Assembly (NCBI GenBank): GCA_903925685.1
Contig: CAIYGI010000092.1
Coordinates: 1 to 43,257 of the forward strand
From: an uncultured bacterium
Lineage (GTDB): Bacteria > Verrucomicrobiota > Kiritimatiellia > CAIKKV01 > CAIYGI01
Length of the DNA stretch: 43,257 bases
Direction: 5' to 3'
Each line of letters begins with the position of its first letter. Within the stretch, counting starts at the first letter, position 1. Shown here piece after piece: positions 5,744 through 32,285 of this stretch. The notes under the pieces are model-generated. The model ran no database searches and was not told the DNA's origin. It worked only from the letters and a program-made list of their open reading frames with translations. The position numbers and the translations under genes were made by a program.

Positions 5744-5794
5744 ATCTGTCCGGAGTCGCCGCAGTCTGGATCGTGAACCGAGAGGTCTGCACGA

Positions 5795-5838
5795 TAGGGT
5801 TATACCCCATAGGAGAAACTGTGCCCCCGGGGTATCAT
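5795..5838 (+). promoter_or_regulatory. Palindromic activator site plus -10 box upstream of the radical SAM/transaldolase operon
   Basis: The palindrome TAGGGT-TAT-ACCCCA lies at 5795-5809, with one mismatch between the arms. A -10-like TATCAT lies at 5833-5838, 38 bp from motif start to hexamer start. The same arrangement occurs before the ceramide operon and before phosphoketolase. Placed this way, the palindrome would be centred near -42 of a start site around 5845. That fits a dimeric activator covering a missing -35 box, and it favours the ATG at 5863 over the upstream GTG at 5773. Confidence 0.6.
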
Positions 5839-5862
5839 TATCTGGTGAAAACGAACGGCGAG

Positions 5863-7341
5863 ATGAATGTCCTGCTGATCTATCCGGAGTTCCCGGATAC
5901 GTTTTGGAGTTTCAAGCACGCGCTTGAATTTGTCGGCAAACGATCGGCCTTGCCGCCGCTGGGCTTGCTGACCGTCGGCGCCATGCTGCCGCGGGAATGG
6001 TCGCTGCGGCTGGTGGACGTAAATGTGCGGGGGCTGACCGAAAAGGATCTGGCATGGGCCGATTGCGCATTCATCAGCGCCATGGTCGTGCAGCGCGAGT
6101 CGGCGCATCGGATCGTGGCCCGCTGCCGGAAGGCCGGGCTGCGGATCGTCGCGGGCGGTCCGCTGTTCAACAGCGAACACGGGCAGTTCGAGGAAGTGGA
6201 CCATTTTATCCTGAACGAGGGCGAACTGACGCTTCCGCCTTTTTTGGGCGATCTGGCACGGGGATGCCCGAAGCGAATCTATTCATGCGCCGGGTTTGCG
6301 GAACTGCGGCAAACGCCTCCGCCCCGATGGGAACTGCTGGGTCTCAGGCGCTATGCCAGCATGAGCATCCAGTTTTCGCGCGGCTGCCCGTTCAACTGCG
6401 ATTTCTGCAATGTCACCGCCCTGCTGGGCCACCGCGTGCGCATCAAGACCTCGTCGCAGATCATCGCGGAACTCGACAGCCTGCACGCCCAGGGCTGGCG
6501 CGGCGACGTGTTCTTCGTGGACGATAATTTCATCGGCAACAAACAGTTTCTGAAAAGCGATCTGCTGCCGGCCTTGATCGCATGGCGGAAGAACAAGCCC
6601 GGGAACTTGTTTTTCACCGAGGCATCGATCAATCTGGCCGATGACGAGACCTTGATGAAACTGCTGGTCGAGGCCGGGTTCAACAAGGTTTTCATCGGCA
6701 TCGAAACCCCGGATGAAAGTTGCCTGGCCGAATGCAGCAAGGTTCAGAATGGGAACCGCAATCTCGTTGAAGACGTGAAGCGCATCCAGCGCGCGGGTCT
6801 TCAGGTGCAGGGCGGATTCATCGTCGGCTTCGACCACGACCAGCCCTCCATCTTCCAGCGGCAGATAGATTTCATCCAGCGGAGCGGGATCGTGACGGCC
6901 ATGGTCGGCTTGCTTCAGGCCCCCGCTGGAACACGCCTCTACGAGCGCATGAAAAAAGAGGGCCGTCTACGCTCGGAATCGTCTGGAGACAATGTGGACG
7001 GCACCACCAATATCATCCCGTCGATGAGCATGGATCTGCTGAAGGAGGGGTACCGGAGCATTCTGGATCACATTTACGCTCCGGCGCCGTACTATCAGCG
7101 CGTCAGGACATTCCTGCGGGAGTACAAGGCGCCAAGCGTGCGCGGAAAACTGAAATTCTCGCACATCCTCGCGCTGCTGCGCTCTGTCTACTGGATCGGG
7201 CTCGTGGGCCGGGAGCGGCTGCAATATTGGAAGCTGCTGCTTTGGACCCAGTTCCTGCATCCCCGGCTGCTCCCCGATGCGATCGTCTTAGCAATCTATG
7301 GCTATCACTTTCGCAAGATATGTCAAAGGCATGTGGCGTAG
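5863..7341 (+). CDS. B12-binding radical SAM enzyme, DUF4070 (HpnP-like) family
   Basis: About 492 residues. The N-terminal half is a cobalamin-binding-type Rossmann domain (about 1-140) starting MNVLLIYPEFPDTFWSF. The radical SAM core follows, with the cluster motif CPFNCDFC (Cys175, Cys179, Cys182). The C-terminal part resembles the DUF4070 region. The family includes class B radical SAM methylases such as the hopanoid C-2 methylase HpnP, but no hopanoid genes are present here, so the substrate cannot be assigned. An open frame continues upstream to a GTG at 5773. The ATG at 5863 is preferred because the predicted promoter would start transcription near 5845 and because the B12 domain begins right there. 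Transaldolase follows after 8 bases. Since the same promoter motif drives a ceramide operon, a lipid substrate is a possibility (inference). Confidence 0.85.
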   Translation: MNVLLIYPEFPDTFWSFKHALEFVGKRSALPPLGLLTVGAMLPREWSLRLVDVNVRGLTEKDLAWADCAFISAMVVQRESAHRIVARCRKAGLRIVAGGPLFNSEHGQFEEVDHFILNEGELTLPPFLGDLARGCPKRIYSCAGFAELRQTPPPRWELLGLRRYASMSIQFSRGCPFNCDFCNVTALLGHRVRIKTSSQIIAELDSLHAQGWRGDVFFVDDNFIGNKQFLKSDLLPALIAWRKNKPGNLFFTEASINLADDETLMKLLVEAGFNKVFIGIETPDESCLAECSKVQNGNRNLVEDVKRIQRAGLQVQGGFIVGFDHDQPSIFQRQIDFIQRSGIVTAMVGLLQAPAGTRLYERMKKEGRLRSESSGDNVDGTTNIIPSMSMDLLKEGYRSILDHIYAPAPYYQRVRTFLREYKAPSVRGKLKFSHILALLRSVYWIGLVGRERLQYWKLLLWTQFLHPRLLPDAIVLAIYGYHFRKICQRHVA

Positions 7342-8535: not shown

Positions 8536-9918
8536 ATGGCGGCACGCACCCTTTTCTCGAAGTCGAAAGACGGCCATGGAGGTGGCAAGCCGTTGCCGCC
8601 GGAGTTGCGCCATACCCCCTGGCGGGATGTTGCCGCTAGCTACGCGTGGCCGCTGCTGGCGACCATGCTGGGGGCGGGCTGCGCCACGCCATCGCTAATG
8701 CCCACGCCCAACCTTTATGGGCACACATCCGACAATCCTTTCGCAAACGTGCCGCCGGCTTTCCGAACCAATACCGCCGATGTCATCTACCTGACCGATC
8801 GTGCTCCAGATGGCGACCGCGCCAAAGATCCCAAATACGGATTCAAGCGTTCGTTGTCGCTGGCCTTCGGGATGACCACGGTTGGCATCGGCAATACAAT
8901 GTCCTGGGACGATCTCGTGACTGTCAGCCGGTCTGCTGAACGGCAGCGACAGGCGCCGATGCGTATTATCGAGACGCGCGAGATGGGATTGTTTCCGCCG
9001 GTGCCAACGAGGGAGGTCGAACATGATGGCCAATGGGTGGAGTCGCCGGAGAGCGTCATTGCCCGCCGGGCTGCCGAAGCGCAATTCAAGGCGCTGGTGG
9101 CGGAACGCCTGGCCCTCACGCCCAAGAAGGAGGTCTATGTATTCATCCACGGCACTGGCAGCGACTTCGCGAGTCCCATGTATGTAATGGCGGGACTCTG
9201 GCACTTCATGGGACGTTGCGGCGTACCGGTCGTTTACACATGGCCGTCCAGCGGCAGCGGCGAATCTCTTGGCGGTTACGATTACGATCGCGAATCGAGC
9301 GAGTTCACGGTCTATCATCTCAAACAATTCCTGCGTTTACTGGCGACATGCCCAGGGCTTGAGAAAGTTCATATCATCGCCCACAGTCGCGGGACCGACA
9401 CCGCCCTGGCGGCGATTCGGGAACTTAACATCGAAATTAGCGCTGCGGGCGGCAATACGCGAAAGGCGCTGAAACTAGGCTGCTTCGTGCTGGCGGCCGC
9501 GGATATGGACCTGGAGGTGAGCATGCAGCGGGTTAGCGCGGAGCGGCTCATGCAAGTACCGGAGCAAATGGTGCTGTACGTCTCTCCCACGGACATGCGG
9601 CTTCGCCTGGCGAGCTTTTTCTTCGGCAGCAAGGACCGCTTGGGCCAGTCCCATGTTGGAGACAGGACTCCCCGGCGCGCCGAACTGCTGAGCCACCTGC
9701 CGGGCATTCAGTTCATCGACGCCCGCGTGGCCGGTTCAGGACGCGGCAGTCATTTCTACTTTTACGGTCACCCCGCTGTCAGTTCCGACCTGATCCTCCT
9801 GATGCGTGACAATCGTGGCCCCGGGGCGGCAAACGGAAGACCTCTCTTCAGAGAGGCAGACGGCCTCTGGCGGATTGACGAGGACTACCCCGCGCCAGAA
9901 CAGGGAGCACACCGATGA
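8536..9918 (+). CDS. Alpha/beta-hydrolase lipoprotein, DUF900-like
   Basis: A 460-residue protein with an unusually long polar N-terminus, then a hydrophobic stretch ending in a lipobox-like LGAGC (Cys49). It may be an outer-membrane lipoprotein, although the signal is atypically far from the start. The hydrolase core shows VYVFIHGTGSDF (oxyanion region), VYTWPSSGSG, and the nucleophile elbow in IIAHSRGTD. The run of motifs fits the DUF900 family of alpha/beta hydrolases; the natural substrate is unknown. AAGGAG sits five bases before the ATG, supporting this start. A possible alternative is a shorter protein starting nearer the signal segment. Its stop overlaps the next gene's start (ATGA), so the two are translationally coupled. 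Confidence 0.8.
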   Translation: MAARTLFSKSKDGHGGGKPLPPELRHTPWRDVAASYAWPLLATMLGAGCATPSLMPTPNLYGHTSDNPFANVPPAFRTNTADVIYLTDRAPDGDRAKDPKYGFKRSLSLAFGMTTVGIGNTMSWDDLVTVSRSAERQRQAPMRIIETREMGLFPPVPTREVEHDGQWVESPESVIARRAAEAQFKALVAERLALTPKKEVYVFIHGTGSDFASPMYVMAGLWHFMGRCGVPVVYTWPSSGSGESLGGYDYDRESSEFTVYHLKQFLRLLATCPGLEKVHIIAHSRGTDTALAAIRELNIEISAAGGNTRKALKLGCFVLAAADMDLEVSMQRVSAERLMQVPEQMVLYVSPTDMRLRLASFFFGSKDRLGQSHVGDRTPRRAELLSHLPGIQFIDARVAGSGRGSHFYFYGHPAVSSDLILLMRDNRGPGAANGRPLFREADGLWRIDEDYPAPEQGAHR

Positions 9919-10484
9919 ATCTCATGCGGATCGTCCAAATCGCTACCATTGTCTGGGCACTCTCGGAAGTCATGCTGATCGTGATGACCCGTCGCAACCG
10001 CCATGGCGCATCACCCCGTGACCGTGGGTCAAGAACCCTTCTCTGGTGCGTCATAGGCGCCGGCATCGCCGCAGGCACCGCGCTTCAGTCCGTCACCGCC
10101 GCCAGGATTCGGCTGCCCGAGGTGTGGGTGCTTGATGTCAGTCTGCTGCTGCTCGTGGCGGGGTTTGCCGTCCGCTGGACCGCGATTTTCACCCTCGGCC
10201 GCTTTTTCAGCACCAGCGTGGCCATTCATCAGGATCACCGGCTCGTCCGAACTGGTTTGTACTGCCTGGTCCGGCACCCATCCTACAGTGGGCTCCTGTT
10301 GTTGTTTCTCGGCATGGGGCTTTCGTTTGGTAACTGGCTTAGCTTGGCCGTTATTGTAGCCCCGTTTCTTGCGGCGCTGCTCTACCGCATTCAGGTTGAG
10401 GAATCCTCACTGATGGAGGCGCTTGGGGACGATTATGTCGATTATTGCAAGACGACGAAACGTCTGCTGCCCGGTCTGTTCTAG
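9915..10484 (+). CDS. Isoprenylcysteine carboxyl methyltransferase (ICMT)-like membrane protein
   Basis: A 189-residue polytopic membrane protein with about five hydrophobic segments. The C-terminal signature includes LVRTGLYCLVRHPSYSG, followed by a hydrophobic hairpin and a RIQVEESSL segment with late acidic residues. This is the pattern of the ICMT/phospholipid methyltransferase superfamily, which uses S-adenosylmethionine at the membrane. In bacteria such proteins methylate lipids or small hydrophobic carboxylates, and the actual substrate cannot be read from the sequence. GGGAG precedes the start, and the ATG overlaps the hydrolase stop by four bases (ATGA). It ends the operon, and its stop overlaps the stop of the convergent gene in a shared CTAG. 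Confidence 0.82.
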   Translation: MNLMRIVQIATIVWALSEVMLIVMTRRNRHGASPRDRGSRTLLWCVIGAGIAAGTALQSVTAARIRLPEVWVLDVSLLLLVAGFAVRWTAIFTLGRFFSTSVAIHQDHRLVRTGLYCLVRHPSYSGLLLLFLGMGLSFGNWLSLAVIVAPFLAALLYRIQVEESSLMEALGDDYVDYCKTTKRLLPGLF

Positions 10485-11419
10485 GGTTGCCTGCCGGCTT
10501 CATCCCTCTCGCCGCTTTTGCCGCCCGTCATCGCGCCGTCCTTCGACTTTGGCACAGCCAGGGGCGAAGCCAGGTACCATTCGGTGCGATCGCTACCGAT
10601 CCCGAAGCGGGCCAGTTGGCGCAAGTCCGCCTCCAGCATATCGGGCGTGCTGTACTCCAGGATGCGATATTCGGAATCCGTCCAGATCCGCAACTTCGTC
10701 CACAGAATCTTCGTCTCCGGTGGAAAAGCGATGCGAATCCGGTGAATGAAATTGATGCCTGCCCGCCCCGCTGCTTCCGTCACCATATCGACACAGTTGC
10801 TGGTCCTGACATCGATCTGTTCGTTATTCCTCTGCGTCAAATATCCATCGATCAGATCATGCCGTCGTTTGGTGATCGGCATTCTCCAGACAAACGTGGG
10901 GGTGCGATTGCCATTGCCGAGCTCGATTTTGCCGTCGGTCATCGTCACCCACAAATAGGAGATCGGATTGGGATCTCCAGCCCGAAGCTTCTTGATCAGG
11001 GCATCGCCGTACTTCGGCCGCTCCCGCCCGAAGTTGCCGTTGACGCCGCATTCCAGGCGCTTTTCGGGACTTTCCAGAATCAGCCAGCAATGCCCCCACT
11101 GTTGTCGTAAATGCGACAGGAAATATGACCCTATATCGCGGTAATCCCAAGCGGCGGACCTGGTCAGGATATAGAGGTAATACCCCTCGTCCCCCACCGG
11201 TGTATGGGTGGCAGGATCCAGGTCGGCGTCTGGTGCAAACCGGCACTCGATGCCGACGGGCTGGGCACTCCAGCCATTGGCTTGCAGCGGAGCGTAGAGT
11301 CTGGGCTCCAGACGGCAGCAACCCGCGGTTCCTAGCGCCACCAGCAGCACCAGTCCGGCGAGGCTCCTCATCGATATGGGCATGGCGATTTCTGAACGTT
11401 CTGATCGCGAACGGATCAC
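10481..11419 (-). CDS. Lipoprotein with possible permuted papain-like fold (paralogue B)
   Basis: 312 residues with a hydrophobic signal ending in LGTAGCC (lipobox Cys34), so probably a lipoprotein. The first 16 residues precede the signal, and Met13 or Met17 could be the true start, but the first ATG overlaps the upstream stop (ATGA). Conserved with its neighbour are WGHCWLILESP (His110), a GNFGRE.PKYGD block, NPISYLW, TPTFVWRMPIT and SNCVDMV (Cys209). The His-before-Cys order and the long gap are what a circularly permuted NlpC/P60-type cysteine hydrolase would show; this is an inference. The C-terminal tail is charged and Lys/Gly-rich. I recognise no named family. Confidence 0.72.
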   Translation of the reverse strand: MIRSRSERSEIAMPISMRSLAGLVLLVALGTAGCCRLEPRLYAPLQANGWSAQPVGIECRFAPDADLDPATHTPVGDEGYYLYILTRSAAWDYRDIGSYFLSHLRQQWGHCWLILESPEKRLECGVNGNFGRERPKYGDALIKKLRAGDPNPISYLWVTMTDGKIELGNGNRTPTFVWRMPITKRRHDLIDGYLTQRNNEQIDVRTSNCVDMVTEAAGRAGINFIHRIRIAFPPETKILWTKLRIWTDSEYRILEYSTPDMLEADLRQLARFGIGSDRTEWYLASPLAVPKSKDGAMTGGKSGERDEAGRQP

Positions 11420-12333
11420 CTGACGTCCTCGGCCCTCTCGCTGCTTCTGTCACCCGCCGACCCGCTGTCCTTCAACTTTGGCGCGGCCAGCTTCGAAGCC
11501 AGATACCAAGCGGTGACATCGCGCCCGATTCCGAATCGTGCAAGATGGCGCAGATCTGTCTCCAGCAGATCGGCCGTGCTGTACTCGATGATACGGTATT
11601 GGGGGTCCGTCCACATATGCCATGTCTTCCCCAGTATCTTGATATCCGACGGAATGGTGAGGCGGACCCGGTGGATCAGGCTGAGTCCTGCCGCCGCCGC
11701 CGCATCAGCAACGAAATCGATGCAGTTGTTGGTCGTCACGCCGATCCGGTCATACGGCCAATGCATCACTTGTGCATAAATCAATTGGTGCTGTCGCATG
11801 GTTATCGGCATTCGCCAGACAAACGTGGGCGTGCGCCTGCCGTTGCCGATCTCGATTTCGCCGTCGGACATCGTTTCCCACAAATATGAGATTGGATTGG
11901 GGTCTCCATCCCGAAGCTTCCTGCTCACGCCATCGCCGTACTTCGGCTTTTCCCGTCCAAAGTTTCCGTTCAGTCCGCATTCCAGACGATTTGTGGGACT
12001 TTCCAAAATCAGCCAACTATGTCCCCACGGTTGCCGCGCATGCGACACGAGATACGATCTCGTATTACGGTAGTCCCAGGCAGCGGCCTTGGTCAGGAGA
12101 TAGAGGTTGTACCCGTCGTTTCCGACCGGCGTCCGGGTGGCGGGATCCAGCGCGGCATCGCTGGCGAAGCGGCAGGCGATCGCGACAGGTTGGGCGCGCC
12201 AGCCATCGGGTTGCATCGGAGCGAAGAGCCTGGGATCCACATGGGCGCAACCGGCGCTTCCGAGGGCGGTCGCCAGCAACAGTTTATGGAACATTCGCAT
12301 TGGCGGCGGCATGAGGTTTCCGGACGATTTCAT
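11416..12333 (-). CDS. Lipoprotein with possible permuted papain-like fold (paralogue A)
   Basis: 305 residues, a close tandem paralogue of the next gene downstream. The signal peptide ends LGSAGCA (Cys29). Shared blocks include DPRLFAPMQ.DGW, WGHSWLILESP (His105), ECGLNGNFGRE, NPISYLW, TPTFVWRMPIT and NNCIDFVADAA (Cys204). The His-to-Cys spacing of 99 residues is the same in both copies, which supports a shared active or binding site. The start ATG overlaps the stop of the upstream radical SAM gene by one base, and the stop overlaps the next start, so all three minus-strand genes form an operon. The function is unknown; a periplasmic cysteine hydrolase or acyltransferase is one reading. Confidence 0.74.
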   Translation of the reverse strand: MKSSGNLMPPPMRMFHKLLLATALGSAGCAHVDPRLFAPMQPDGWRAQPVAIACRFASDAALDPATRTPVGNDGYNLYLLTKAAAWDYRNTRSYLVSHARQPWGHSWLILESPTNRLECGLNGNFGREKPKYGDGVSRKLRDGDPNPISYLWETMSDGEIEIGNGRRTPTFVWRMPITMRQHQLIYAQVMHWPYDRIGVTTNNCIDFVADAAAAAGLSLIHRVRLTIPSDIKILGKTWHMWTDPQYRIIEYSTADLLETDLRHLARFGIGRDVTAWYLASKLAAPKLKDSGSAGDRSSERAEDVR

Positions 12334-13328
12334 TACGGCCGGCCGGCGATCCCATCCATGAGCGTTTCACTGTTGTGCCTGATGTTCTCGAAAAATGACT
12401 GGACCAGAAACTTTCCGTCCACCAGTTTGCCGCGCTTGAAACACCCAGCCGCCCGCGGCGTGGCAAACTCGATCAGGGATATCTGCAACCTGGGAGTGGG
12501 CCGGAAGCGGTAACAGGCTCCGCAACCTTGTCCGGGATCGCAATTGGGCTCCCACAGGGCTTGCGGCTGGAACTGCTCCCGGGTGAAGTAAGGCCGCACG
12601 ATCTCCGTCAGTTCCTCCAGCGTGTAGGGCGCCGTCTCGCCCCACCGTCCGGCTTTGGCCGCCGTCCGAAAATGGATGTATCGGACGATGTTGCGATAGC
12701 GCTCGGCAAGCGCCAGGAGTTCGGGAACGACGTCTTCATTCAGTCCGCGCACAATGATGGCCGAGATTTCCACCCGCCCAGAGAAATGACGGCCGAGTGT
12801 TTCCAAGGCTTTAATCTTCCAGGTCAGGCAGTGATCGTTGTTGATCCTGTAATAGACATCGTCCCGGCTGGACCCGCCATCCATGGAAAGACCGAGAATG
12901 AACCGGGCATCCAGATCCGAGAGCGTTTTAACGAAATCTGGATCGGTAAAACGCCGCCCATTGGAGAGGACAGTGACTTCATGTTTGCGACGCCTGGCGG
13001 CGCGGATAAACCCCGTAAAATCCGGATGCAACGTCGGTTCCCCGCCGAGAAACTTGAACTGAACACATTTTGGCAGTCGGCGGCAGACTTCCTCGAAATA
13101 GGCCAGATCCATGTCGGCCAGGGCGCGAATGGGGTTGTAGCAGAAGGTGCAATTCATATTGCAGCGGTACGTCAGATCCACGCCCAAGGACTCAAAAGGG
13201 TTCTCCTCGACGGGATATTCCATCAGGCACGGCACATGCGGCATATGCGCGACCTTTTCACGGCGCGCGGCGCCAGCCGCTGCCGTCCGTCCAACATCGC
13301 GTTCCATCACAGTCTCGCAAGAGATCAT
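12333..13328 (-). CDS. Radical SAM protein with C-terminal cysteine (SPASM-like) region
   Basis: About 331 residues. The cluster motif CNMNCTFC (Cys56, Cys60, Cys63) follows SLGVDLTYR, then FKFLGGEPTLHPDF, the typical GGEP SAM-binding motif. The C-terminal third has further cysteines (EPNCDPGQGCGACYRF and AAGCFKRG), which probably bind an auxiliary Fe-S cluster. Such proteins modify peptides, proteins or small molecules; the substrate is unknown. The open frame extends upstream to 13529 over the divergent gene's promoter. The ATG at 13328, preceded by a GGGGG stretch, is the reasonable start. It leads a three-gene operon with two lipoproteins overlapping end to start, so one of them, or a product they handle, may be its target. 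Confidence 0.82.
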   Translation of the reverse strand: MISCETVMERDVGRTAAAGAARREKVAHMPHVPCLMEYPVEENPFESLGVDLTYRCNMNCTFCYNPIRALADMDLAYFEEVCRRLPKCVQFKFLGGEPTLHPDFTGFIRAARRRKHEVTVLSNGRRFTDPDFVKTLSDLDARFILGLSMDGGSSRDDVYYRINNDHCLTWKIKALETLGRHFSGRVEISAIIVRGLNEDVVPELLALAERYRNIVRYIHFRTAAKAGRWGETAPYTLEELTEIVRPYFTREQFQPQALWEPNCDPGQGCGACYRFRPTPRLQISLIEFATPRAAGCFKRGKLVDGKFLVQSFFENIRHNSETLMDGIAGRP

Positions 13329-13412
13329 GTCAAAGCCCCCGGAAAAATATTGCCCATTAGGTAAAACAACCGAATACCCGAAGCAAACTGCCTCCGGTTG
13401 GCACCTGCTTGC

Positions 13413-13456
13413 AGTATGAATCGCCCGCCGGTCCTGTTCCATAGGGTGAAACCCTA
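13413..13456 (-). promoter_or_regulatory. Possible minus-strand promoter sharing the central palindrome
   Basis: Read on the minus strand, the palindrome 13456-13442 is followed at 38 bp by CATACT (13418-13413), a 4/6 match to a -10 box. This would serve the radical SAM/lipoprotein operon starting at 13328. Because the palindrome is perfectly symmetric it could activate both directions. Support rests only on spacing and a weak hexamer. Confidence 0.35.
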
Positions 13457-13486
13457 CCTTGCCAGGGCCGCTTCCTGTGTTAGGAT
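13442..13486 (+). promoter_or_regulatory. Perfect palindrome plus -10 box upstream of the ceramide operon
   Basis: TAGGGT-GAA-ACCCTA (13442-13456) is a perfect 6-3-6 inverted repeat. A -10-like TAGGAT lies at 13481-13486, 39 bp from motif start to hexamer start. The predicted start site near 13493 leaves a short leader before the GTG at 13519. The leader contains a four-codon mini-ORF (ATG at 13508) whose stop overlaps that GTG. This is the best copy of the motif repeated at 5795 and 17662. Confidence 0.62.
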
Positions 13487-13518
13487 GGATATGCGAGCAA
13501 TCCCGCCATGGTGAAACA

Positions 13519-14709
13519 GTGAAGAGCAAAATAGGTCAAAAGATTCTGGCTTACAAAGGTCCGGACCGTATCATGGCTGCTGGACTGTATCCGTACTTCA
13601 GACCCATCTCTTCGGCACAAGGCACGGAAGTCATGCTCGACGGCAAGCGGGTGCTGATGTTCGGCTCGAACAGTTACATGGGCCTCACCGATCATCCAAA
13701 GGTCAAGGAAGTCGCCATGGCTGCGATCGCGAAATACGGAACCGGCTGCGCCGGATCGCGCTTCCTGAATGGAACGCTCGATATCCATCTGGCCTGCGAG
13801 GAAAAACTGGCCTGCTTTGTGAAGAAAGAAGCGGCCCTGCTCTATTCCACCGGCTACCAGGTCAATCAGGGCGTGATTTCGTGTCTGGTGGATCATGACG
13901 ATTGCGTCATATTGGACAAATTGGACCATGCCAGCATTGTGGAAGGCGCGCGGCTGAGCGCGGGAAAACTTGTCCGCTTCAAACATAACGACATCGCCAG
14001 CCTGGCGCATGCCTTGGAAGGCTGCACGGCGACGGGCGGCAAATTGATCGTCGTGGACGGCGTCTTCAGCATGGACGGCGATCTGGCGAATCTGCCCGGG
14101 ATAGTCAGCCTTGCGGACAAACACGACGCGCTGGTCATGGTTGACGACGCCCATGGAATTGGCGTAATCGGTGAACACGGCAGCGGCACGGCGTCGCATT
14201 TCGGACTGACCGACAGCGTGGACTTCATCATGGGAACTTTCAGCAAGTCGCTGGCTTCGCTGGGCGGCTTCGTGGCGGCCGATGCGGCAACGATCAAATA
14301 TCTCAAGCACAATTCCCGCGCGCTGATCTTCAGCGCAAGCATGCCGCCTTCGAACGTGGCGGCGGTCATGGCGGCCCTAGAGATCATTCAAGCGGAACCG
14401 GAAAGAATCCGCGCCCTCTGGGCTAACACGCACCGCATGGCGGATGGACTGCGTGGCATGGGGTTCTCGCTGGGAAACTCGGTTACGCCGATCCTGCCGG
14501 TTGGCATCGGAGACAACCTGGTGTGTTTCAAGGCCTGCCGGCTGCTCCAGGAGGAGGGCGTGTTCGTCAACCCCGTCGTCGCTCCGGCCGTGGAACCGGG
14601 CCACGCGCTGCTGCGCGTCAGCCTTATGGCAACCCACACTTTCGCCCAAATTGACGTGGCGCTCGAAAAATTCGAGAAGGTCGGCAGGGCTCTAAATTTA
14701 TCAGGTTAA
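13519..14709 (+). CDS. spt: Serine palmitoyltransferase (alpha-oxoamine synthase family)
   Basis: PLP enzyme condensing L-serine with a fatty acyl thioester to give 3-ketosphinganine, the first step of sphingolipid synthesis. The 396-residue product shows [47 protein letters not shown] and VDDAHGIG, with the PLP-binding Lys243 in [12 protein letters not shown]. The run GLYPYFRPI followed by [17 protein letters not shown] is characteristic of bacterial serine palmitoyltransferases rather than BioF or glycine C-acetyltransferase. The start is uncertain. The frame opens at a TTG (13459) next to the palindrome; the GTG at 13519 is preferred because predicted transcription begins near 13493, and an ATG at 13573 is a shorter option. 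Putative ceramide synthase and reductase genes follow directly, which strongly supports the assignment. Confidence 0.88.
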
Positions 14710-14711
14710 AC

Positions 14712-15827
14712 ATGATTATCAGCGAGGTCGTCACAGGCGGAGACATGGCCCGGTTTATCCGATTCCCATGGAAGATCTATCGCCACAACCAGAACTGGGT
14801 TCCGCCGCTGATTTCGGAGTATCGCTCTTTCCTCGACCGGCGAAAAAATCCATTTTTTGAGCATGCCGAAGTGAAGTTTATGCTGGCCTCGGACAGGTCC
14901 GGCAGGATTTGCGGAAGAATCGCCGCCATCGTGAACCGCAGGCACGTCGAATTGCACGGCGAGAAGGCCGGCTTTTTCGGCCTTTTCGAGTGCGAGAACG
15001 ATCGCCAGGCGGCAGACGCCCTTTTTGGCGCCGCGGCCGATTTCCTCAGGTCGCGCGGCATGACGATCATGCGCGGCCCCGAAAACATGTCGGTCAACGA
15101 CGATATCGGCCTCCTGATCGAGGGCTTCGACTCGCCGCCGGCGATCATGATGCCGTTCAATCCCGCCTACTACCCTGAACTTGTCGAAGCCCGCGGCTTT
15201 CGAAAAACGATGGATCTCTATGCCTATTACGGCGACACACGCGAACAACGGCTGCCGGAGCGAGTCGCGCGCGGCATCGAACTGTGCCGGCGGCGCTACA
15301 AGTTCCAAGTGCGTCCGATCGACCTGCGCCGGTTCGACGAGGAAATCGACGCGGTTTACCGGGTCTATACGCAGGCCTGGGAGGATAATTGGGGGGCGGT
15401 CGCCATGACCAGGAAGGAGTTCGACTACTTGGTCGCCCAGTTCAAAGGCGCGGTCGATCCCGACCTTTTTCTGATCGCGACGGTCGGCGGCGAAGTGGCG
15501 GGGTTTTCGCTGGCACTGCCCGATTTCAACCAGGTGCTGATTAAACTCAATGGGCGGCTCTTCCCCTTCGGAATCCTGAAGCTTTTGTGGTACCGGCGCA
15601 AAATCGACATGATCCGCGTCGTCACGACCGGCATACTCAAGCAGTTCCGCCACCGCGGGATTGACAGCAGCTTCTATTACGAAACCTGGAAACGCTCGAC
15701 TGCCAAAGGCATGCCGCGGGGCGAAATGTCGTGGATTCTCGAAGACAATGCCGCCATGAACAATGCGCTGCGGAATCTTGGGTTAAGGCTTTACAAACGC
15801 TACAGACTCTATGGTCTCGGTCTATGA
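14712..15827 (+). CDS. bcerS: Putative bacterial ceramide synthase (GNAT-fold N-acyltransferase)
   Basis: 371 residues without signal peptide or membrane helix. The N-terminal region reads FPWKIYRHNQNWVPPL and NPFFEHAEVKFMLA, followed by GRIAAIVN and GFFGLFECENDRQAA. The middle has RGPENMSVNDDIGLLIEGFD. The C-terminal half has an acyl-CoA N-acyltransferase-like segment, FRHRGIDSSFYYETWKR, and ends SWILEDNAAMNNALRNLGLRLYKRYRLY. This pattern fits the GNAT-like family that in Caulobacter acylates the sphingoid base (bCerS). The identification rests on recognised sequence character plus its place between spt and an SDR gene. It starts two bases after the spt stop, and its own stop overlaps the next start (ATGA). 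A generic GNAT acyltransferase with another amine substrate is the alternative. Confidence 0.78.
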   Translation: MIISEVVTGGDMARFIRFPWKIYRHNQNWVPPLISEYRSFLDRRKNPFFEHAEVKFMLASDRSGRICGRIAAIVNRRHVELHGEKAGFFGLFECENDRQAADALFGAAADFLRSRGMTIMRGPENMSVNDDIGLLIEGFDSPPAIMMPFNPAYYPELVEARGFRKTMDLYAYYGDTREQRLPERVARGIELCRRRYKFQVRPIDLRRFDEEIDAVYRVYTQAWEDNWGAVAMTRKEFDYLVAQFKGAVDPDLFLIATVGGEVAGFSLALPDFNQVLIKLNGRLFPFGILKLLWYRRKIDMIRVVTTGILKQFRHRGIDSSFYYETWKRSTAKGMPRGEMSWILEDNAAMNNALRNLGLRLYKRYRLYGLGL

Positions 15828-16807
15828 AAACGGTTCTCGTCACGGGCGCGTCCGGATTCGTGGGTGGGCACGTCGTCGAAGCCCTCGCGCGAAACGGTAT
15901 CCGGCCACGGTGTCTGGTTCGCCAGAGCAGTCGGTTGGACTTCATCAGGGAATGGTCGCCGGAATTCGTGTCGGGGGATATAACCTCGCCGGCGTCCTTG
16001 GAAAGCGCCGTGGAGGGAATGGACGGCGTCGTACACTGCGCAGGCGTCACCAGGGCTTTATCCGTTAAGGACTACTGGCGCTTCAATGTGGACGGTTGCA
16101 GCAACCTCTACCGCGCCTGTTTGGCGAAGAATCCGGCCGTACGACGGATCGTGCATATCGGCAGTCTGGCCGCTTTGGGACCGTCTGCCGCAGGCATACC
16201 TGTGCAGGAAGGGCAGGAACGGCATCCCGTCAGCAACTACGGCAGCAGCAAGTTGGCAGGGCAGCGTATCGCCGAAGCCCACATGGACAGACTCCCCGTA
16301 GTCATACTCATTCCGCCGGCCGTGTATGGGCCGTTCGACAGGGCTTTCTTAGGGCTTTTTACCTGCGCGAAACGGGGGCTCGCACCGGCGATCGGTCGGG
16401 AAGAGCGCTGGGTTTCCCTGATCTACGCAAAAGATCTGGCGCGCGCGGTTCTCGCTTGTCTGGAAAGCGAGAAGGCTGCAGGCAAAGAGTACCTATTGGA
16501 AGACGGTCACCCTCACGCGTGGCGGGAAGTCACGGCCGCCATCGGCCAATCCATGCATACGTCGCCCGTGCGCGTCCGAATACCGCTCATGCTGGCCAAG
16601 CTGGCAGCCACCGTTATTGGATGTGCCGCAAGATGCAAGGGGAAACCGACGTTTTTCGACCGCGACAGGCTTAAGGATTTCTTACAACCTTCCTGGACCT
16701 GCTCGTCGGCCAGGCTCCGCACGGAACTTGGCTTCGCCCCAAAGTACAACCTGGCGCAAGGCATTGCGGAAACCTGCCGCTGGTACACGGAGCACAACTG
16801 GCTATGA
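15824..16807 (+). CDS. cerR: NAD-dependent epimerase/SDR, putative ceramide reductase
   Basis: 327 residues. It has an N-terminal Rossmann fold with TGASGFVGGHVVEAL (residues 8-22), an HCAGVTRA segment, HIGSLAALGP, and the catalytic Tyr139 and Lys143 in NYGSSK. PPAVYGP follows, as in extended SDRs. In Caulobacter an SDR of this type reduces the 3-keto group of oxidised ceramide, and the gene neighbourhood here is the same set. The frame opens upstream at 15731, but the Rossmann motif begins right after the ATG at 15824, which overlaps the preceding stop (ATGA). The stop in turn overlaps the next ATG, so spt to PAP2 is one coupled operon. A sugar-epimerase role cannot be excluded from sequence alone. 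Confidence 0.82.
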   Translation: MKTVLVTGASGFVGGHVVEALARNGIRPRCLVRQSSRLDFIREWSPEFVSGDITSPASLESAVEGMDGVVHCAGVTRALSVKDYWRFNVDGCSNLYRACLAKNPAVRRIVHIGSLAALGPSAAGIPVQEGQERHPVSNYGSSKLAGQRIAEAHMDRLPVVILIPPAVYGPFDRAFLGLFTCAKRGLAPAIGREERWVSLIYAKDLARAVLACLESEKAAGKEYLLEDGHPHAWREVTAAIGQSMHTSPVRVRIPLMLAKLAATVIGCAARCKGKPTFFDRDRLKDFLQPSWTCSSARLRTELGFAPKYNLAQGIAETCRWYTEHNWL

Positions 16808-17664
16808 AGGACCGGTCGCTCAACATCGTTGACCATTGCACGTTCGCCTACAATGGTGTGGTCCTGGCGTTCGTGCTACTGTTTCACTCGCGTATTCCCC
16901 AATGGCATCTGCTAATACTGCCGAACATCATCGCGATTGCCGTCGTTCTTCTGCTCGCACTTGTCGTCGGGGATCGTGCCGCTCTCGTCCCCAGACTGGT
17001 CCGGAACCTGGCCCCGCTGGGTTTCTTCCTACCCATGTATATACAGATCGGAAGCATCAATCATATCGTGTTTCCGGACTTCCTCGACCCGTTGTTTATC
17101 CGGATCGAAGAAAATATCTTTGGATTTCAACCTGCGGTTGTTTTCGCCCAGAGGTTTTCGCAGAACTGGATTGCGGAATACATGCACTTCGCCTATGCGA
17201 CGTACTACCTGCTGTTCCCGGGACTTGGCGCCTTCCTTTACCTCCGCCGGGAGAAGCCGGCGTTTCTCGATTACATGTTTTCGCTCTGCGCCACGATGTA
17301 TGTCTGTCTCCTGACGTATATCATCCTGCCGGTCAGGGGCGCGGTCAGCTTCGGACTTGGCGACGCTCCGGAAAGCGCCTCGCTGCCGTTCACGGCGGCC
17401 ATGGCCTGGATTTACCGGCATCTTGAAACCGAGGGCGCCGCGTTTCCAAGTTCTCACGTGGCCATCGCCTCGCTCGTTCTATACTACACCGTGCGCTACG
17501 CGCGTTCCGCTGCCTGGGTCGTGGGGCCACTCGTGATCAGCCTGATCACGGCGACCGTCTACTGCCGCTACCACTACGCGATCGACGTTCTGGCGGGATT
17601 GGCGACGACGGCGATCCTCCTGCCCCTGTGGCGCCGGATCAATCCGGCGCTGCACCCGCAGTAG
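16804..17664 (+). CDS. PAP2-family membrane protein, inositol-phosphorylceramide-synthase-like
   Basis: 286 residues with about six transmembrane helices. The phosphatase/transferase signature is in two parts: [14 protein letters not shown] near residues 217-230 and [13 protein letters not shown] near 258-270. The PSSH and RYHYxxDxxAG spacing is that of the PAP2_3 group, which includes Aur1-type enzymes that place a phospho-head group on ceramide. Given three ceramide genes directly upstream, a ceramide head-group transferase or a lipid phosphate phosphatase of the sphingolipid pathway is the best reading (inference). The ATG overlaps the cerR stop (ATGA). The stop TAG at 17662-17664 forms the first bases of the promoter palindrome of the phosphoketolase gene. 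Confidence 0.8.
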
Positions 17665-21045: not shown

Positions 21046-21246
21046 AAACAAAATCGAAGACGCTCGCCCCAAAACCGTTGCACAAGATCAATGCCTTTCG
21101 ACAAAAACGCCACCGTATTCACCCGCATGCTCTGGATCAACCCCTCCGACAATCAGGGCGCGCGCTTCAATCTAAACGAGGTCCGCGCCGGCAGGCCATG
21201 GGAAGACCGCGCTGAGAAGTTAGGGCGATCGACGCTAAACAAGCAC

Positions 21247-21274
21247 TTGCAGATCATATCGCATTTGTTATATT
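21247..21274 (+). promoter_or_regulatory. Possible promoter of the defence island
   Basis: The 270 bases between the YihY stop and the helicase ATG contain a locally AT-rich stretch with TTGCAG (21247-21252), a 16-bp spacer and TATATT (21269-21274), a 5/6 -10 match. The leader to the ATG at 21316 has no clear ribosome-binding site. The rest of this interval shows no recognisable gene. Confidence 0.35.
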
Positions 21275-21315
21275 CCTGTTTGGACGTGGTGATTATTTTT
21301 GCCATCCCGAAACAG

Positions 21316-24300
21316 ATGACAAGAACGCGCGAATATCCTGGCAAGATCAAGGCGATCAGGGCGAAGTTGGGCCTTACTCAAGTCCAACTTGCCCAGCGGC
21401 TTGGTGTTTCGTTCGCTACTGTGAACCGCTGGGAGAACGAGCAGTCCAAGCCGTCCAAACTGTCCTGGGCACAGATCGAACGGCTCCAAGATGACGGTTT
21501 AGCCCCCGCCTCAGCGGCGAGTAAAGTCCTGGAATCCCCCGCGGCTTACGGTGCCAGCACGCCGCCCCCGCTCGACTTCACTGGCGCGGCGGAGGTCGTA
21601 ACGGCGCTCGTCGAGGGCGAACGCCTTTCCTACGGTCACCTCTACAATCCGTCCTTCGCCACCGAGATTTCCCGCATCGACCCGCTGCCCCACCAACGGA
21701 TCGCTGTCTACGATTGCATGCTGAAACAGCCGCGCCTCCGCTTCCTGCTGGCCGACGATGCCGGCGCCGGGAAAACAATCATGTCCGGTCTATACATGCG
21801 GGAGATGCTGTCCCGCCGGCTCATCCGTCGCATCCTCATTGTTCCCCCCGCAGGTCTGGTCGGGAACTGGGAACGCGAACTCCGCGTCCTGTTCGGGCTC
21901 TCCTTCCGCATCTTGTCAGGGCCGGACGTCAAGGCCGGCAACCCGTTCACCGGGGCCGGCAGCGACCGGGTGATCGTGAGCGTCGATACCCTTTGCGGGG
22001 AGCGGATGCTCGCCTGCCTGCGCTCGCCTGAAGTTCCAGCCTACGATCTGGTGATCTTCGACGAGGCGCACAAGCTCTCGGCGTCCCGTGCTCAGGATCT
22101 GCGCGTCAAGAAGACCGACCGTTACCGGCTGGCCGAAGCGCTCGCCGGGGTGCCGACGCACGACCGCATCTGGCGTTTGCCGTGGTCCGTGCGCCATCTG
22201 CTGCTGCTTACGGCGACACCCCACATGGGCAAGGACTACCCGTACTACGCGCTGTGGCGGCTTTTGGAGCCCACAATCCTGTCCACTCCCGAAGCGTTCA
22301 AGGCGTTCCCTGCCGATGCCCGCGCCCGGCATTTCGTTCGCCGGACCAAGGAGGAGATGCTGACGCTGGCCGGAACGCCGCTCTATCCCAAGCGCGAATC
22401 GGCCACGCTCTCGTACCAACTCACGCAGGGCGAGCTGAGCGAACAGCGGCTGTACGACGAGACCACCGACTACCTCCGCAATCTCTACAATAAGACGAAG
22501 TTGCTCAACCAGTCCGCCGCCCGCCTCGCCATGGGTGTGTTCCAGAGGCGCTTGGCCAGTTCGACCTACGCCCTGCTGACATCGCTCAAGCGCCGATTGA
22601 CCAAGCTCGACGACCTCATTACGGCCGTCAACACCGGCCGCCTCACCCTTGAGCAGTTGCTGGCCATGCAGCGACAGATCGGCACCCGTGAGGACGTGCT
22701 CGATTCCAAGACCGCCGACGAGGAATCGGAAGCTGACGGCAAGGAGGAAAACGAACGCGACGAGGACGAACTCCTCCAGGGCGTCATTGTCACGTCACTT
22801 GCCGACCTCCAACTTGAACGCGACCGGGTGAACGAACTCAAGAACTTGGCGGAGCGGCTCTACATCACGCGCACGGAGTCCAAGTTCGACCGGCTGAAGG
22901 AGATCATCACCGACCCGACTTACGCGAAAGAGAAGCTGCTCGTATTCACCGAGCACCGCGACACGCTTGTCTTCCTCGTGCAGCGGCTGGAAAACCTCGG
23001 CTACACCGGCCAGGTCGCTCAGATTCACGGCGGGATGCACTACAAGGAGCGCGAACGCCAGGTGGAGCACTTCCGGGCTCCCATCGAGGATGGCGGCGCC
23101 CGCATCCTCGTGGCAACCGACGCCGCCGGCGAAGGCATCAATCTCCAGTTCTGCTGGATCATGGTCAACTGGGACGTGCCCTGGAATCCGGCGCGGCTGG
23201 AACAGCGCATGGGCCGCATCCATCGGTACGGCCAGAAAGCGTCCACGGTCATCATCCTGAACCTGCTGGCCACGGGCACCCGCGAAGGAAAGGTGCTGGA
23301 AACGCTGCTGAAAAAGCTGGAAATCATTCGCAAGGAACTGAAGTCGGACAAGGTTTTCGATGTGATTGGCATGCTGTTCCAGGACGTGTCCATCAAGGAC
23401 TACATGCAGATGACGCTGGAGAAGTCGGCCGATGATGTGGCCCAAGAACTGGCCGGTCGTCTTACCGTCGAGCAGGTCAAGGCCATCGCCGCGCAGGAGA
23501 AGCAGATCTACGGCGCAGGCGGTGACGTGAAGAAGGAACTTCCCCGCATTCGGGAAGACATGGAACGTGCCGCGTTGATCCGCCTCATGCCCGGCTATGT
23601 ACGCCGCTACATGGGGCGGGTACTGCCGCTGGTCGGCATCGGTATTGACGGCAGCTTCGACGCCACATTCGAACTCAAACCACTCCAGCCCCACGCCCTC
23701 GACCCCATGCTCAGCGCCTTGGAGGACACCTCTGGCGATGGTGGGTCCGTATGCTCAGTGCTTCGGCCGCCGTCGCAGGATGGCGTCCATTGGGTGCATC
23801 CTGGCGAGCCCGTGTTCGAGGCCCTCCGAGCGCTGGCAGCCGACAAACTCGGCAGCGTCGCACTCCGTGGCACCGTCCTCCTCGATCCATCGGCATCGGC
23901 CCCGTACTTGTTCCATGTTGCCCGCGTTGAGGTGCAGCGGGCGGCCGATCCCGTTTTCTCCGAACTGGCAGCGCCCGATACGCTCGAAACCAAGTTGATC
24001 GGCTTGCGGCAGTCGGCCACGGGCGAGATGGAAGTGGTATCTGTCGAACACATGCTTCTGCTCCAGAAGGCCCACGGCCTGCCGCCCGAGGCCCAGACCC
24101 TGGCCATGGCCGCCGTGGAACGTAAGCGCCATGCCGAACAGTACCTGCAGGATCACGTCCTTGCCGATCTGGCCGCCCAGCACAGGAAGGCGATTCTGAG
24201 CGATCTGCCCCAGCGGGAAGAGTTCGTCCGACGTGGCTTCGCGTTCGAGGAAGCGGAACTTGCCGAGGCCCGCGCCGCATGGGCAAAGAAAGCCCGCGAC

Positions 24301-24897
24301 GGCGATGCGGCGGCAACCCGAGAAGTCGAGCGGATCAAGGGCCGACAGAAGGAGCTTGCCGAGCATCGGACGCAGGCGATCGCCATGCAGAAGCGCCTGC
24401 CCGAACTCATCGTCGGCGGCGACGTGCGGTTCCTCGCCCACGCGCTGGTGGTCCCTTCCGCCGATCCAGAGGCCAAGAAGAAGCAGGACGCCGACACCGA
24501 GCGTATCGCCATGGAAATCGTCAGGGCGTGGGAGGAAACGGCCGACGCCAAGGTGACGTTTGTTCACACCCCGGACCGCGCCTTGGCGGCCGACCTCACT
24601 GCGTATCCAGGGTTCGACATCCTGTCCGCCCGGTCGGATGGCCAGCGCCGGGCCATCGAGGTCAAGGGTTTGGCCACGACCGGCGAAATTGAGGTGAAGG
24701 ACAACGAGTGGGCCAAGGCCGCGAATCTGAGACAGGAATACTGGTTGTACGTCGTGTACCATTGCGCCACCGCCAACCCTGAACTCGTGCGGGTACCCGA
24801 TCCCTTCGGGCGCCTGCTGGCCAAGGCGACGGGGACGATGCGGATCAGCAGGCGGGAGATTGTCGGCGCGGCCGAACGGTCGGAGGTGTCCATATGA
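21316..24897 (+). CDS. XRE-HTH / SNF2-type helicase with C-terminal DUF3883 domain
   Basis: 1193 residues from the ATG at 21316; the frame is open further upstream to 21091, but similarity starts here. An N-terminal XRE-like helix-turn-helix (about 10-58) contains LGLTQVQLAQRLGVSFATVNRWE. The SNF2 ATPase has Walker A DDAGAGKT (Lys153), DEAH at 249-252, LLLTATPH, and a helicase C domain with VFTEHRDTL, VATDAAGEGINLQ and QRMGRIHRYGQ. A long charged middle region leads to a DUF3883 domain with FDILSAR (Asp1101) and IEVKG (Glu1115, Lys1117). Such helicases are the translocase parts of DISARM-like and helicase-methylase-ATPase defence systems. The HTH may allow autoregulation. The stop overlaps the next ATG (ATGA). 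Confidence 0.88.
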   Translation: MTRTREYPGKIKAIRAKLGLTQVQLAQRLGVSFATVNRWENEQSKPSKLSWAQIERLQDDGLAPASAASKVLESPAAYGASTPPPLDFTGAAEVVTALVEGERLSYGHLYNPSFATEISRIDPLPHQRIAVYDCMLKQPRLRFLLADDAGAGKTIMSGLYMREMLSRRLIRRILIVPPAGLVGNWERELRVLFGLSFRILSGPDVKAGNPFTGAGSDRVIVSVDTLCGERMLACLRSPEVPAYDLVIFDEAHKLSASRAQDLRVKKTDRYRLAEALAGVPTHDRIWRLPWSVRHLLLLTATPHMGKDYPYYALWRLLEPTILSTPEAFKAFPADARARHFVRRTKEEMLTLAGTPLYPKRESATLSYQLTQGELSEQRLYDETTDYLRNLYNKTKLLNQSAARLAMGVFQRRLASSTYALLTSLKRRLTKLDDLITAVNTGRLTLEQLLAMQRQIGTREDVLDSKTADEESEADGKEENERDEDELLQGVIVTSLADLQLERDRVNELKNLAERLYITRTESKFDRLKEIITDPTYAKEKLLVFTEHRDTLVFLVQRLENLGYTGQVAQIHGGMHYKERERQVEHFRAPIEDGGARILVATDAAGEGINLQFCWIMVNWDVPWNPARLEQRMGRIHRYGQKASTVIILNLLATGTREGKVLETLLKKLEIIRKELKSDKVFDVIGMLFQDVSIKDYMQMTLEKSADDVAQELAGRLTVEQVKAIAAQEKQIYGAGGDVKKELPRIREDMERAALIRLMPGYVRRYMGRVLPLVGIGIDGSFDATFELKPLQPHALDPMLSALEDTSGDGGSVCSVLRPPSQDGVHWVHPGEPVFEALRALAADKLGSVALRGTVLLDPSASAPYLFHVARVEVQRAADPVFSELAAPDTLETKLIGLRQSATGEMEVVSVEHMLLLQKAHGLPPEAQTLAMAAVERKRHAEQYLQDHVLADLAAQHRKAILSDLPQREEFVRRGFAFEEAELAEARAAWAKKARDGDAAATREVERIKGRQKELAEHRTQAIAMQKRLPELIVGGDVRFLAHALVVPSADPEAKKKQDADTERIAMEIVRAWEETADAKVTFVHTPDRALAADLTAYPGFDILSARSDGQRRAIEVKGLATTGEIEVKDNEWAKAANLRQEYWLYVVYHCATANPELVRVPDPFGRLLAKATGTMRISRREIVGAAERSEVSI

Positions 24898-26489: not shown

Positions 26490-26742
26490 CGTGTCGACAC
26501 CCCATAGTCGGAAACACGGCCAAATTCGGCGGGGTTTTGAATGCGGCGCCTGCCCAGAAAACTGGGGTGGACACTGGGGTGAAAACTAAGATGGAAACTG
26601 GCAAGAAAACTAGGGTGAAAATTGGGATGAAGAGTGTCGAGTTGATCCGGTCGAATCCCATGGCGCCCGCGAAGAACTGGCACGCGTACTCGGGCTTGCA
26701 ATCAAATCATCGAAAGGATCTGCGGTTGACAATCAAGTCTGA
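26486..26742 (+). pseudogene. Decayed tail of a second COG2865-type gene (repeat linker plus frameshifted winged helix)
   Basis: The frame starting at 26486 (ATGA overlap with the previous stop) encodes a run of 4-residue repeats of KTGV/KTRV type, then KSVELIRSNP. This is the usual linker and first helix before the winged helix of COG2865 proteins. From about 26653 the similarity moves to another frame, which reads HGAREELARVLGLAIKSS and stops at 26742. That resembles the recognition-helix region, so a frameshift seems to split it. No AlbA_2 domain is attached. The original frame stays open to 26836 but its later part looks meaningless. A real small gene of 116 codons is the alternative. Confidence 0.4.
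26557..26628 (+). repeat. Degenerate 12-bp tandem repeat
   Basis: Six diverged units of the type GAAAACTGGGGT follow one another. In the 26486 frame they encode KTGV/DTGV/KTKM/ETGK/KTRV/KIGM. The sequence differs from the GCCCATGACGAG repeat 370 bp upstream but has the same 12-bp period and the same linker position relative to a winged helix. Confidence 0.75.
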
Positions 26743-26823
26743 AGCGGCCTATCAGAGGGCCATTGTTTCAATCATAGAGGGCGGTTACGAGGTCTTCGCA
26801 CGCCGAGAGGAGATATACGAGCT

Positions 26824-27999: not shown

Positions 28000-28034
28000 C
28001 CGTGAGGAGTCCGGAGAAGAAAGACGCGGAGTGT

Positions 28035-28211
28035 AACCACGGAATACACGGAAGGACACGGAAATGGGAAATCTGTTGTACGAAGAGGAGAACCACCTGA
28101 AGGCAACCGGGATGCGTGTCGGCCTTCTGGTCAACTTCGGCCATCACCCAAAACTTGAATACGAGAGGTTCGCCCTGTGACTTTCCGTGCTTTTCCGTGT
28201 ATTCCGTGGTT
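28035..28211. repeat. Inverted-repeat element enclosing a GxxExxY remnant
   Basis: Two 30-bp arms, 28035-28064 and 28182-28211, are inverted repeats matching at 27 of 30 positions by hand alignment. Each arm contains three diverged copies of CACGGAA. The 117 bases between them are exactly one short reading frame. Arms of this CACGGAA type are often seen around GxxExxY genes in environmental genomes (from memory, not checked). The right arm ends 15 bases before the methylase ATG, so the element sits in that gene's leader. Confidence 0.8.
28064..28180 (+). pseudogene. C-terminal fragment of a GxxExxY-family protein
   Basis: A 38-codon frame from ATG 28064 to TGA 28180. It contains ENHLKATGMRVGLLVNFG and then PKLEYERFAL, which is how GxxExxY proteins usually end (KATG.RVGLL.NFG..KLE.KR). 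Full-length members are roughly 120 residues, and the N-terminal part with the GxxExxY motif is missing. The fragment fills the space between the inverted-repeat arms, starting on the last base of the left arm and ending one base before the right arm. Confidence 0.65.
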
Positions 28212-28226
28212 CAACTTCCTAATCCC

Positions 28227-31376: not shown

Positions 31377-31389
31377 CGGAGGTTACACC

Positions 31390-32175: not shown

Positions 32176-32285
32176 GTCTACCGATCATCATTGAGCCCTT
32201 GTTGACCGGAACGGAAGGCGAAGAACCGCTGATGACGTACTCCGTCGTGAATGGTGCAATTAAGGTGGAAAGGAAGCATTTATGA
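32172..32285 (+). CDS. 37-residue mini-ORF linking DUF2971 and DUF499 genes
   Basis: Runs from ATG 32172, overlapping the DUF2971 stop (ATGA), to TGA 32285, which overlaps the DUF499 start (ATGA). The product begins MSLPIIIEPLLTGTEGEEPL and ends in a basic VERKHL. The ribosome-binding site of the DUF499 gene (AGGAAG) lies inside its last codons. It has no recognised family. It could be a real small protein, or simply a device that keeps ribosomes moving from one gene to the next. The double four-base overlap is what argues that it is translated. Confidence 0.5.
   Translation: MSLPIIIEPLLTGTEGEEPLMTYSVVNGAIKVERKHL

Follow-up and report, generated by a model that had tools for sequence, protein, structure and literature searches.

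Overlapping radical SAM and twin lipoprotein genes beside a bacterial sphingolipid operon: a possible envelope-lipid-modifying module

The window analysed here is the whole of contig CAIYGI010000092.1 (assembly GCA_903925685.1; 43,257 nucleotides), from an uncultured bacterium of the class Kiritimatiellia in the phylum Verrucomicrobiota. On its minus strand, at 10481-13328, it carries genes for a radical S-adenosylmethionine (SAM) protein and for two paralogous lipoproteins, back to back with a sphingolipid operon. We tentatively read this trio as a module that modifies envelope lipids, in which the lipoproteins carry out thiol-based acyl transfer. This reading came out as the most likely one because the motif order in the lipoproteins, the nearest solved relative of the radical SAM protein, which is a lipid-tail enzyme, and the sphingolipid neighbours agree. 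Each of the three is a weak pointer to lipids, and two other readings, in which the radical SAM protein is a maturase or the lipoproteins are no enzymes at all, rank close behind.

As a lipid-modifying module, the three genes would be translated together and their products would remodel an envelope lipid. The lipoproteins would be anchored on the periplasmic side through their lipidated N-terminal Cys and would have a thiol site that is NlpC/P60-like, circularly permuted and strongly diverged, made up of His105 and Cys204 in lipoprotein 1 and of His110 and Cys209 in lipoprotein 2, with Glu118 and Glu123, respectively, as a possible third active-site residue. This site may form an acyl-thioester and then move or remove the acyl chain, while the radical SAM protein would act on the same lipid from the cytoplasm or the inner leaflet. 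The divergent operon might perhaps supply the shared substrate in the form of a sphingolipid. Fold, chemistry and substrate in this scheme, and the sharing of the substrate by the radical SAM enzyme, are what we infer from the data below.

The gene unit and its twin lipoproteins

Translation of the open reading frames bore out the three overlapping genes of the first-pass annotation, all on the minus strand, so that the gene structure is directly observed. The radical SAM gene comes first in the unit (P0003, 331 residues, 12333..13328), followed by lipoprotein 1 (P0002, 305 residues, 11416..12333) and lipoprotein 2 (P0001, 312 residues, 10481..11419). The radical SAM stop overlaps the start of lipoprotein 1 by 1 base and the two lipoprotein genes overlap by 4 bases, provided that translation begins at the first start codons; those of the lipoproteins are uncertain, since the twins align from Met8 of lipoprotein 1 and Met13 of lipoprotein 2 onwards. 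Because of the overlap, the radical SAM and lipoprotein genes are probably translationally coupled. A gap of 187 bases (13329..13515) lies between the radical SAM gene and the divergent gene for serine palmitoyltransferase (Spt); it holds one promoter-like site facing Spt (13459-13486), about one being expected by chance. The G+C content at third codon positions was 0.70-0.71 in the trio versus 0.70-0.80 in the neighbour genes, and base composition gives no sign of a recent foreign origin. At the other end, a DUF900 alpha/beta hydrolase gene and a gene of the isoprenylcysteine methyltransferase family (8536-10484, plus strand) lie next to the unit, the latter ending convergently against the lipoprotein 2 gene.

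Both lipoproteins start, as judged by eye, with a signal peptide and a lipobox-like sequence behind a hydrophobic stretch, SAGC at Cys29 in lipoprotein 1 and TAGC at Cys34 in lipoprotein 2; a scripted lipobox expression matched TAGC and missed SAGC. They align without gaps at 62% identity (184/298), with very conserved blocks such as LECGxNGNFGRE. The duplication itself is plainly visible, and the non-synonymous (dN) and synonymous (dS) divergence between the twins (dN 0.24 and dS 0.64 by NG86, 0.23 and 0.79 by YN00) suggests a fairly to moderately recent event.

The first-pass annotation had pointed to a His in WGH.W and a Cys in NC[VI]D lying 99 residues apart in both proteins, and the twin alignment agreed with this. 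His105 (WGHSW, 12019..12021) and Cys204 (NNCID with motif NCID, 11722..11724) of lipoprotein 1 have their counterparts in His110 (WGHCW, 11090..11092) and Cys209 (SNCVD with motif NCVD, 10793..10795) of lipoprotein 2, all on the minus strand. The matched pairing is weak evidence alone, since the duplication is recent and any conserved His/Cys pair keeps its spacing in a gap-free alignment. Besides the lipid Cys, the twins have His98, His105, His182 and His221 and the mature Cys54, Cys119 and Cys204 in common, which gives twelve spacing-matched pairs, the noted one among them. Less ordinary than the pairing, and rare, is the local motif context, in which a hydrophobic strand comes after aromatic-Gly-His and Asn-Cys follows some 100 residues on. 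The pattern [FWY]GH...NC with a distance of 86-116 residues was absent from all 236 unrelated open frames with a minimum length of 200 residues, drawn from loci that included those with partial matches to the lipoproteins (see below), and turned up in 8 and 13 per 20,000 shuffles of the two twins. It was present in 7 of 153 frames from loci of Lnb, the Bacteroides lipoprotein N-acyltransferase, and also in 2 of 157 frames from loci that had been retrieved by just such a pattern, which we do not regard as independent cases.

Comparison with Lnb and other permuted NlpC/P60 enzymes

The order of aromatic-Gly-His, Trp strand and Asn-Cys is a direct observation in both lipoproteins and, at the level of sequence, resembles that of permuted NlpC/P60 lipid enzymes, Lnb above all. 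A catalytic His that precedes the Cys by roughly 90-110 residues is a feature of these enzymes, and the distance of 99 in both twins falls within this range. In excerpts of the published descriptions, BcPPNE has a triad of His49, Glu64 and Cys154, with the Glu at +15 and a His-Cys distance of 105 (PMC3142127), and Tox-Act1 a catalytic pair of His43 and Cys151, 108 apart (PMC12994826). The same excerpts name lipids as targets of permuted NlpC/P60 enzymes (PMC3142127, PMC12994826) and describe permuted members that act on lipids or lipoproteins (PMC12994826, PMC7387801). In the twins, Glu118 of lipoprotein 1 and Glu123 of lipoprotein 2 lie at +13 from the His, with other polar residues also nearby.

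Proteins of the Lnb/DUF4105 family (PF13387, Lnb_N) were found in 33 of the 96 genomes of the phylum that were searched, and 7 of 30 Lnb proteins extracted from these loci contained the strict aromatic-GH...NC motif. His and Cys are 101 (n = 5) or 104 (n = 2) residues apart in these seven cores, as compared to 99 in the twins. A W-x-x-x-[LIV] strand follows the His by 68 residues and precedes the Cys by 31 in the twins, versus 66 and 35 in five of the seven Lnb cores. All 14 anchored global alignments between the twin cores and the seven Lnb cores exceeded the shuffle mean, with z from 0.83 to 2.28, values that prove little as the comparisons are not mutually independent; between the two Lnb subgroups, z ranged from 2.02 to 2.48 (n = 3). 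As to the Lnb_N proteins themselves (L052-L056 and L077-L078), those of the phylum form two or more groups, in which His and Cys are 101 and 104 residues apart, and 23 of the 30 extracted proteins do not fit the aromatic-GH...NC motif as written.

Despite the shared motif order, the twins differ from Lnb in that they match neither its profile nor the tyrosine that its cores carry at -7 from the Cys, have a radical SAM gene as their partner and occur in a genome that has Lnt. YiiX/BcPPNE, LRAT/HRASLS and Tox-Act1 appear alike in the succession of His, polar residue and Cys and in being membrane-associated, but no sequence match to them was obtained and their signature tyrosine was not found in the twins. 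LnsA/LnsB of Staphylococcus aureus is, in the excerpt at hand, another two-part system with a secreted permuted-type member of the NlpC/P60 superfamily, of very weak sequence similarity (PMC7387801). There, however, the partner is a CAAX-protease-like membrane protein instead of a radical SAM enzyme, and the two genes are not adjacent.

The radical SAM protein, the sphingolipid operon and the search for relatives

P0003 has both the CX3CX2C motif and a Pfam core over the cut-off, by which members of the radical SAM superfamily are recognized: PF04055 matched with 71.8 bits versus a cut-off of 29.5, the core spans residues 52-207, and Cys56, Cys60 and Cys63 of the radical SAM cluster are encoded at 13140..13163 (minus strand). 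Cys263, Cys269, Cys272 and Cys296 (12441..12542, minus strand) could bind one auxiliary Fe-S cluster. A SPASM domain comprises seven Cys. The earlier label "SPASM-like" is thus apt in so far as four Cys follow the core, but they are not seven and the Pfam scan returned no SPASM domain. The best NCBIfam matches among 25 of 57 families listed were TrsS (72.6 bits, residues 50-264), MoaA (57.6) and Tes (55.2); the top one, the TrsS radical SAM (seleno)protein, is far under its cut-off of 490. The best solved relative was the tetraether lipid synthase GDGT-MAS (E 2.7e-12), which is alike in the radical SAM core only. GDGT-MAS carries N-terminal rubredoxin and cluster domains according to an excerpt of its description (PMC9433317), whereas P0003 lacks these domains, a rubredoxin-like motif included, and Cys4 and Cys34 are its sole Cys ahead of the core. 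A match to prokaryotic viperin (59 bits over part of the core) was dropped as due to the shared core. Judged from these features, P0003 is an outlier among radical SAM proteins and could accommodate one auxiliary cluster.

The sphingolipid genes that the first-pass annotation had placed nearby are indeed there, as seen directly from family matches and gene order, all on the plus strand. Spt (13516..14709) matched NF047600 with 601.5 bits, just below the cut-off of 640. It is followed by a bacterial ceramide synthase (bCerS)-like acyltransferase (14712..15827), whose plasmid homologues are 35-43% identical among the matches listed (10 of 44 plasmid records), by a ceramide reductase (CerR)-like NAD-dependent epimerase/dehydratase (15821..16807; PF01370 and operon position) and, as the final gene, by a PAP2-family membrane enzyme (16804..17664; PF14378, 69.6 bits). 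In the part of the source consulted, Spt, bCerS and CerR make up the known bacterial pathway to the ceramide backbone and are often found in a cluster (PMC11334938), and bacterial operons of this kind have the same genes in the same order as found beside the trio. The order of the first three genes recurs on a Rubrobacter plasmid, where the bCerS homologue stands beside a pyridoxal phosphate transferase and an NAD(P) oxidoreductase; unlike here, that locus is without radical SAM and lipoprotein genes. On a Diaphorobacter plasmid the acyltransferase homologue is present and Spt is not adjacent, so the bCerS-like family is not tied to Spt everywhere. The operon (13516-17664) looks complete and is apparently sporadic in the class. 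Spt-family matches at E <= 1e-80 were found in 3 of 58 close genomes besides its own, at 42-45% identity, and a same-genus genome (n = 1) had no Spt match at this threshold and no match to the trio proteins.

Relatives of the lipoproteins were confined to the twins within their own genome, to that genome among 117 close genomes and, with the lipoprotein profile, to that genome among 345 genomes of the class. Among 387 genomes of the phylum one further, weak match was seen (G252, E 0.008, over 51 residues in the N-terminal region, which includes the signal peptide), which was rejected after reading its locus. Over 145 phylum genomes the profile gave partial matches in 13 further genomes (E 0.035-0.4), 2 of the 13 loci being read; the close, phylum and class sets overlap. 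Plasmids, phages and viral contigs gave no lipoprotein match. Back-translated lipoprotein peptides hit 35 stretches in contigs of 84,980 species genomes, none of them a relative. A hand-written IUPAC pattern for WGHxW...NCxD hit 21 stretches in these genomes (14 out of frame, 6 with an internal stop, 1 open), scans of this type being bound to miss relatives without WGHxW or with a different His-Cys spacing. The open stretch (L049) and one stretch with a similar pattern in viral contigs (L015) were rejected by eye. For the radical SAM protein, matches besides itself numbered two at E <= 1e-10 in the 117 close genomes (30% and 40% identity, partial), two at E <= 1e-12 in the 387 phylum genomes (25% and 31%), and three, then five including the same three, in viral loci (25-32%); plasmids gave none at 1e-8 and 100 records at 0.01, none covering 80%. 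The unit of radical SAM protein and twin lipoproteins is known from one genome so far, and the paper listings that we searched contained no description of such a unit.

Elsewhere in the window, an Hma defence system occupies 21091-35602 on the plus strand, with the HmaA helicase (21091-24897, 501 bits), the HmaB methylase (28116-31376, 401 bits) and the HmaC ATPase (32282-35602, 243 bits); two AlbA_2/Schlafen genes and one PDC-S31/DUF2971 gene lie within its span. A B12-binding radical SAM protein with DUF4070 (5773-7341, plus strand) showed low-score kinship to HpnJ/PhpK-type enzymes. At 35836-43119 (minus strand) a protein of 2427 residues combines GH94 and glucoamylase-like domains with a glycosyltransferase match, and we presume it to be similar to a cyclic glucan synthase.

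Weighing the explanations

The earlier suggestion of a modified surface cysteine hydrolase or acyltransferase stood up in part: the His-before-Cys order, the spacing and the surrounding elements resemble permuted NlpC/P60 lipid enzymes, but no profile ties the lipoproteins to any family and the family tyrosine is absent. That the radical SAM enzyme modifies the cysteine is speculative. Several results weigh against a lipid-modifying module. All seven Lnb cores have a tyrosine at -7 from the Cys that both lipoproteins lack, and neither lipoprotein has one at -27, the BcPPNE position. The lipoproteins had no family match in Pfam, NCBIfam or PHROGs (nor, for lipoprotein 1, in PADLOC), in Pfam not even at E <= 5. 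No significant profile match to Lnb was obtained (hhalign probability 0.1); an unfiltered hmmsearch with the Lnb profile reported neither lipoprotein, and the best E value in the reverse search was 0.91. Identity between the twins is lowest just before the Cys (30% at 188-207), the similarity of P0003 to the GDGT-MAS/Tes family is limited to the core, with 55.2 bits versus a cut-off of 450, and the linkage of the trio to sphingolipid genes is seen in one genome. The AlphaFold2 model of the lipoprotein with its paralogue alignment was unusable as well (pLDDT 39.9). In favour of the module, even this low-confidence model has the His run directly into a strand and embeds the Cys in a helix; Foldseek found nothing at E <= 0.001 with it (best E 0.41). 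The radical SAM protein, modelled with two viral relatives in a three-sequence alignment, gave an equally unusable result (pLDDT 42.6) and served as an unplanned control: since a protein whose core is certain failed too, the failed lipoprotein model says nothing on the fold. Because the tyrosine, the defining feature tested, was missing, we did not assign the lipoproteins to the permuted NlpC/P60 family; by analogy, they may nevertheless work like such enzymes.

Close behind, though doubtful in its own right, comes the possibility that the radical SAM protein is a maturase that modifies both lipoprotein precursors in the cytoplasm before export, the lipoproteins being active only afterwards. 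Anaerobic sulfatase maturases modify exported sulfatases before export in this manner. The position of the radical SAM gene at the head of the unit, overlapping the lipoprotein genes, would suit such a role. So would the four Cys behind the core, which could hold an auxiliary cluster as it occurs in many peptide-modifying radical SAM enzymes, and conserved lipoprotein blocks such as LECGxNGNFGRE, which could be the targets. However, P0003 has four of the seven Cys and no SPASM domain in the Pfam scan, it scored far under every maturase cut-off among the NCBIfam matches listed (25 of 57 families), and the radical SAM matches in the 117 close and 387 phylum genomes, at 25-40% identity, lend no support from co-inheritance. 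We hold it for just as doubtful that the lipoproteins are binding or structural proteins of the envelope, with Cys204 structural or in a disulphide, and that the radical SAM protein, although on the same transcript, serves some unrelated purpose. The chosen His/Cys pair as one of twelve among four His and three mature Cys, the fairly recent duplication (dN 0.24, dS 0.64 by NG86) and the want of both family tyrosine and profile support argue for this explanation. The motif context argues against it, as aromatic-GH followed by NC at such a distance was seen in 0 of 236 unrelated frames versus 7 of 30 Lnb proteins, and so does the odd number of conserved mature Cys, because of which at least one of the three is likely free.

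Two further proposals are more specific. It is very unlikely that the lipoproteins are diverged lipoprotein N-acyltransferases of the Lnb kind. Their motif order and distances are closest to the Lnb cores of the same phylum, and PF13387 finds no match in their own genome at E <= 1, but tyrosine and profile match are missing and the genome encodes a standard Lnt (296.8 bits versus a cut-off of 132.9). It is mainly because Lnt already fills the job that we reject this function. Improbable, if less so, is an undescribed two-sided tailoring of sphingolipids, in which the radical SAM protein would form bonds, C-C or other, in a ceramide-type lipid on the inside and the tyrosine-less lipoproteins would swap acyl chains on the outside, leading to a new bacterial sphingolipid.

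In conclusion, should the trio prove to be the lipid-modifying module that we tentatively favor, the combination of thiol acyl lipoproteins and a radical SAM protein, encoded next to sphingolipid genes, would represent a lipid-tailoring arrangement without description in the searched literature. Permuted NlpC/P60 chemistry would thereby be extended to a tyrosine-less form.

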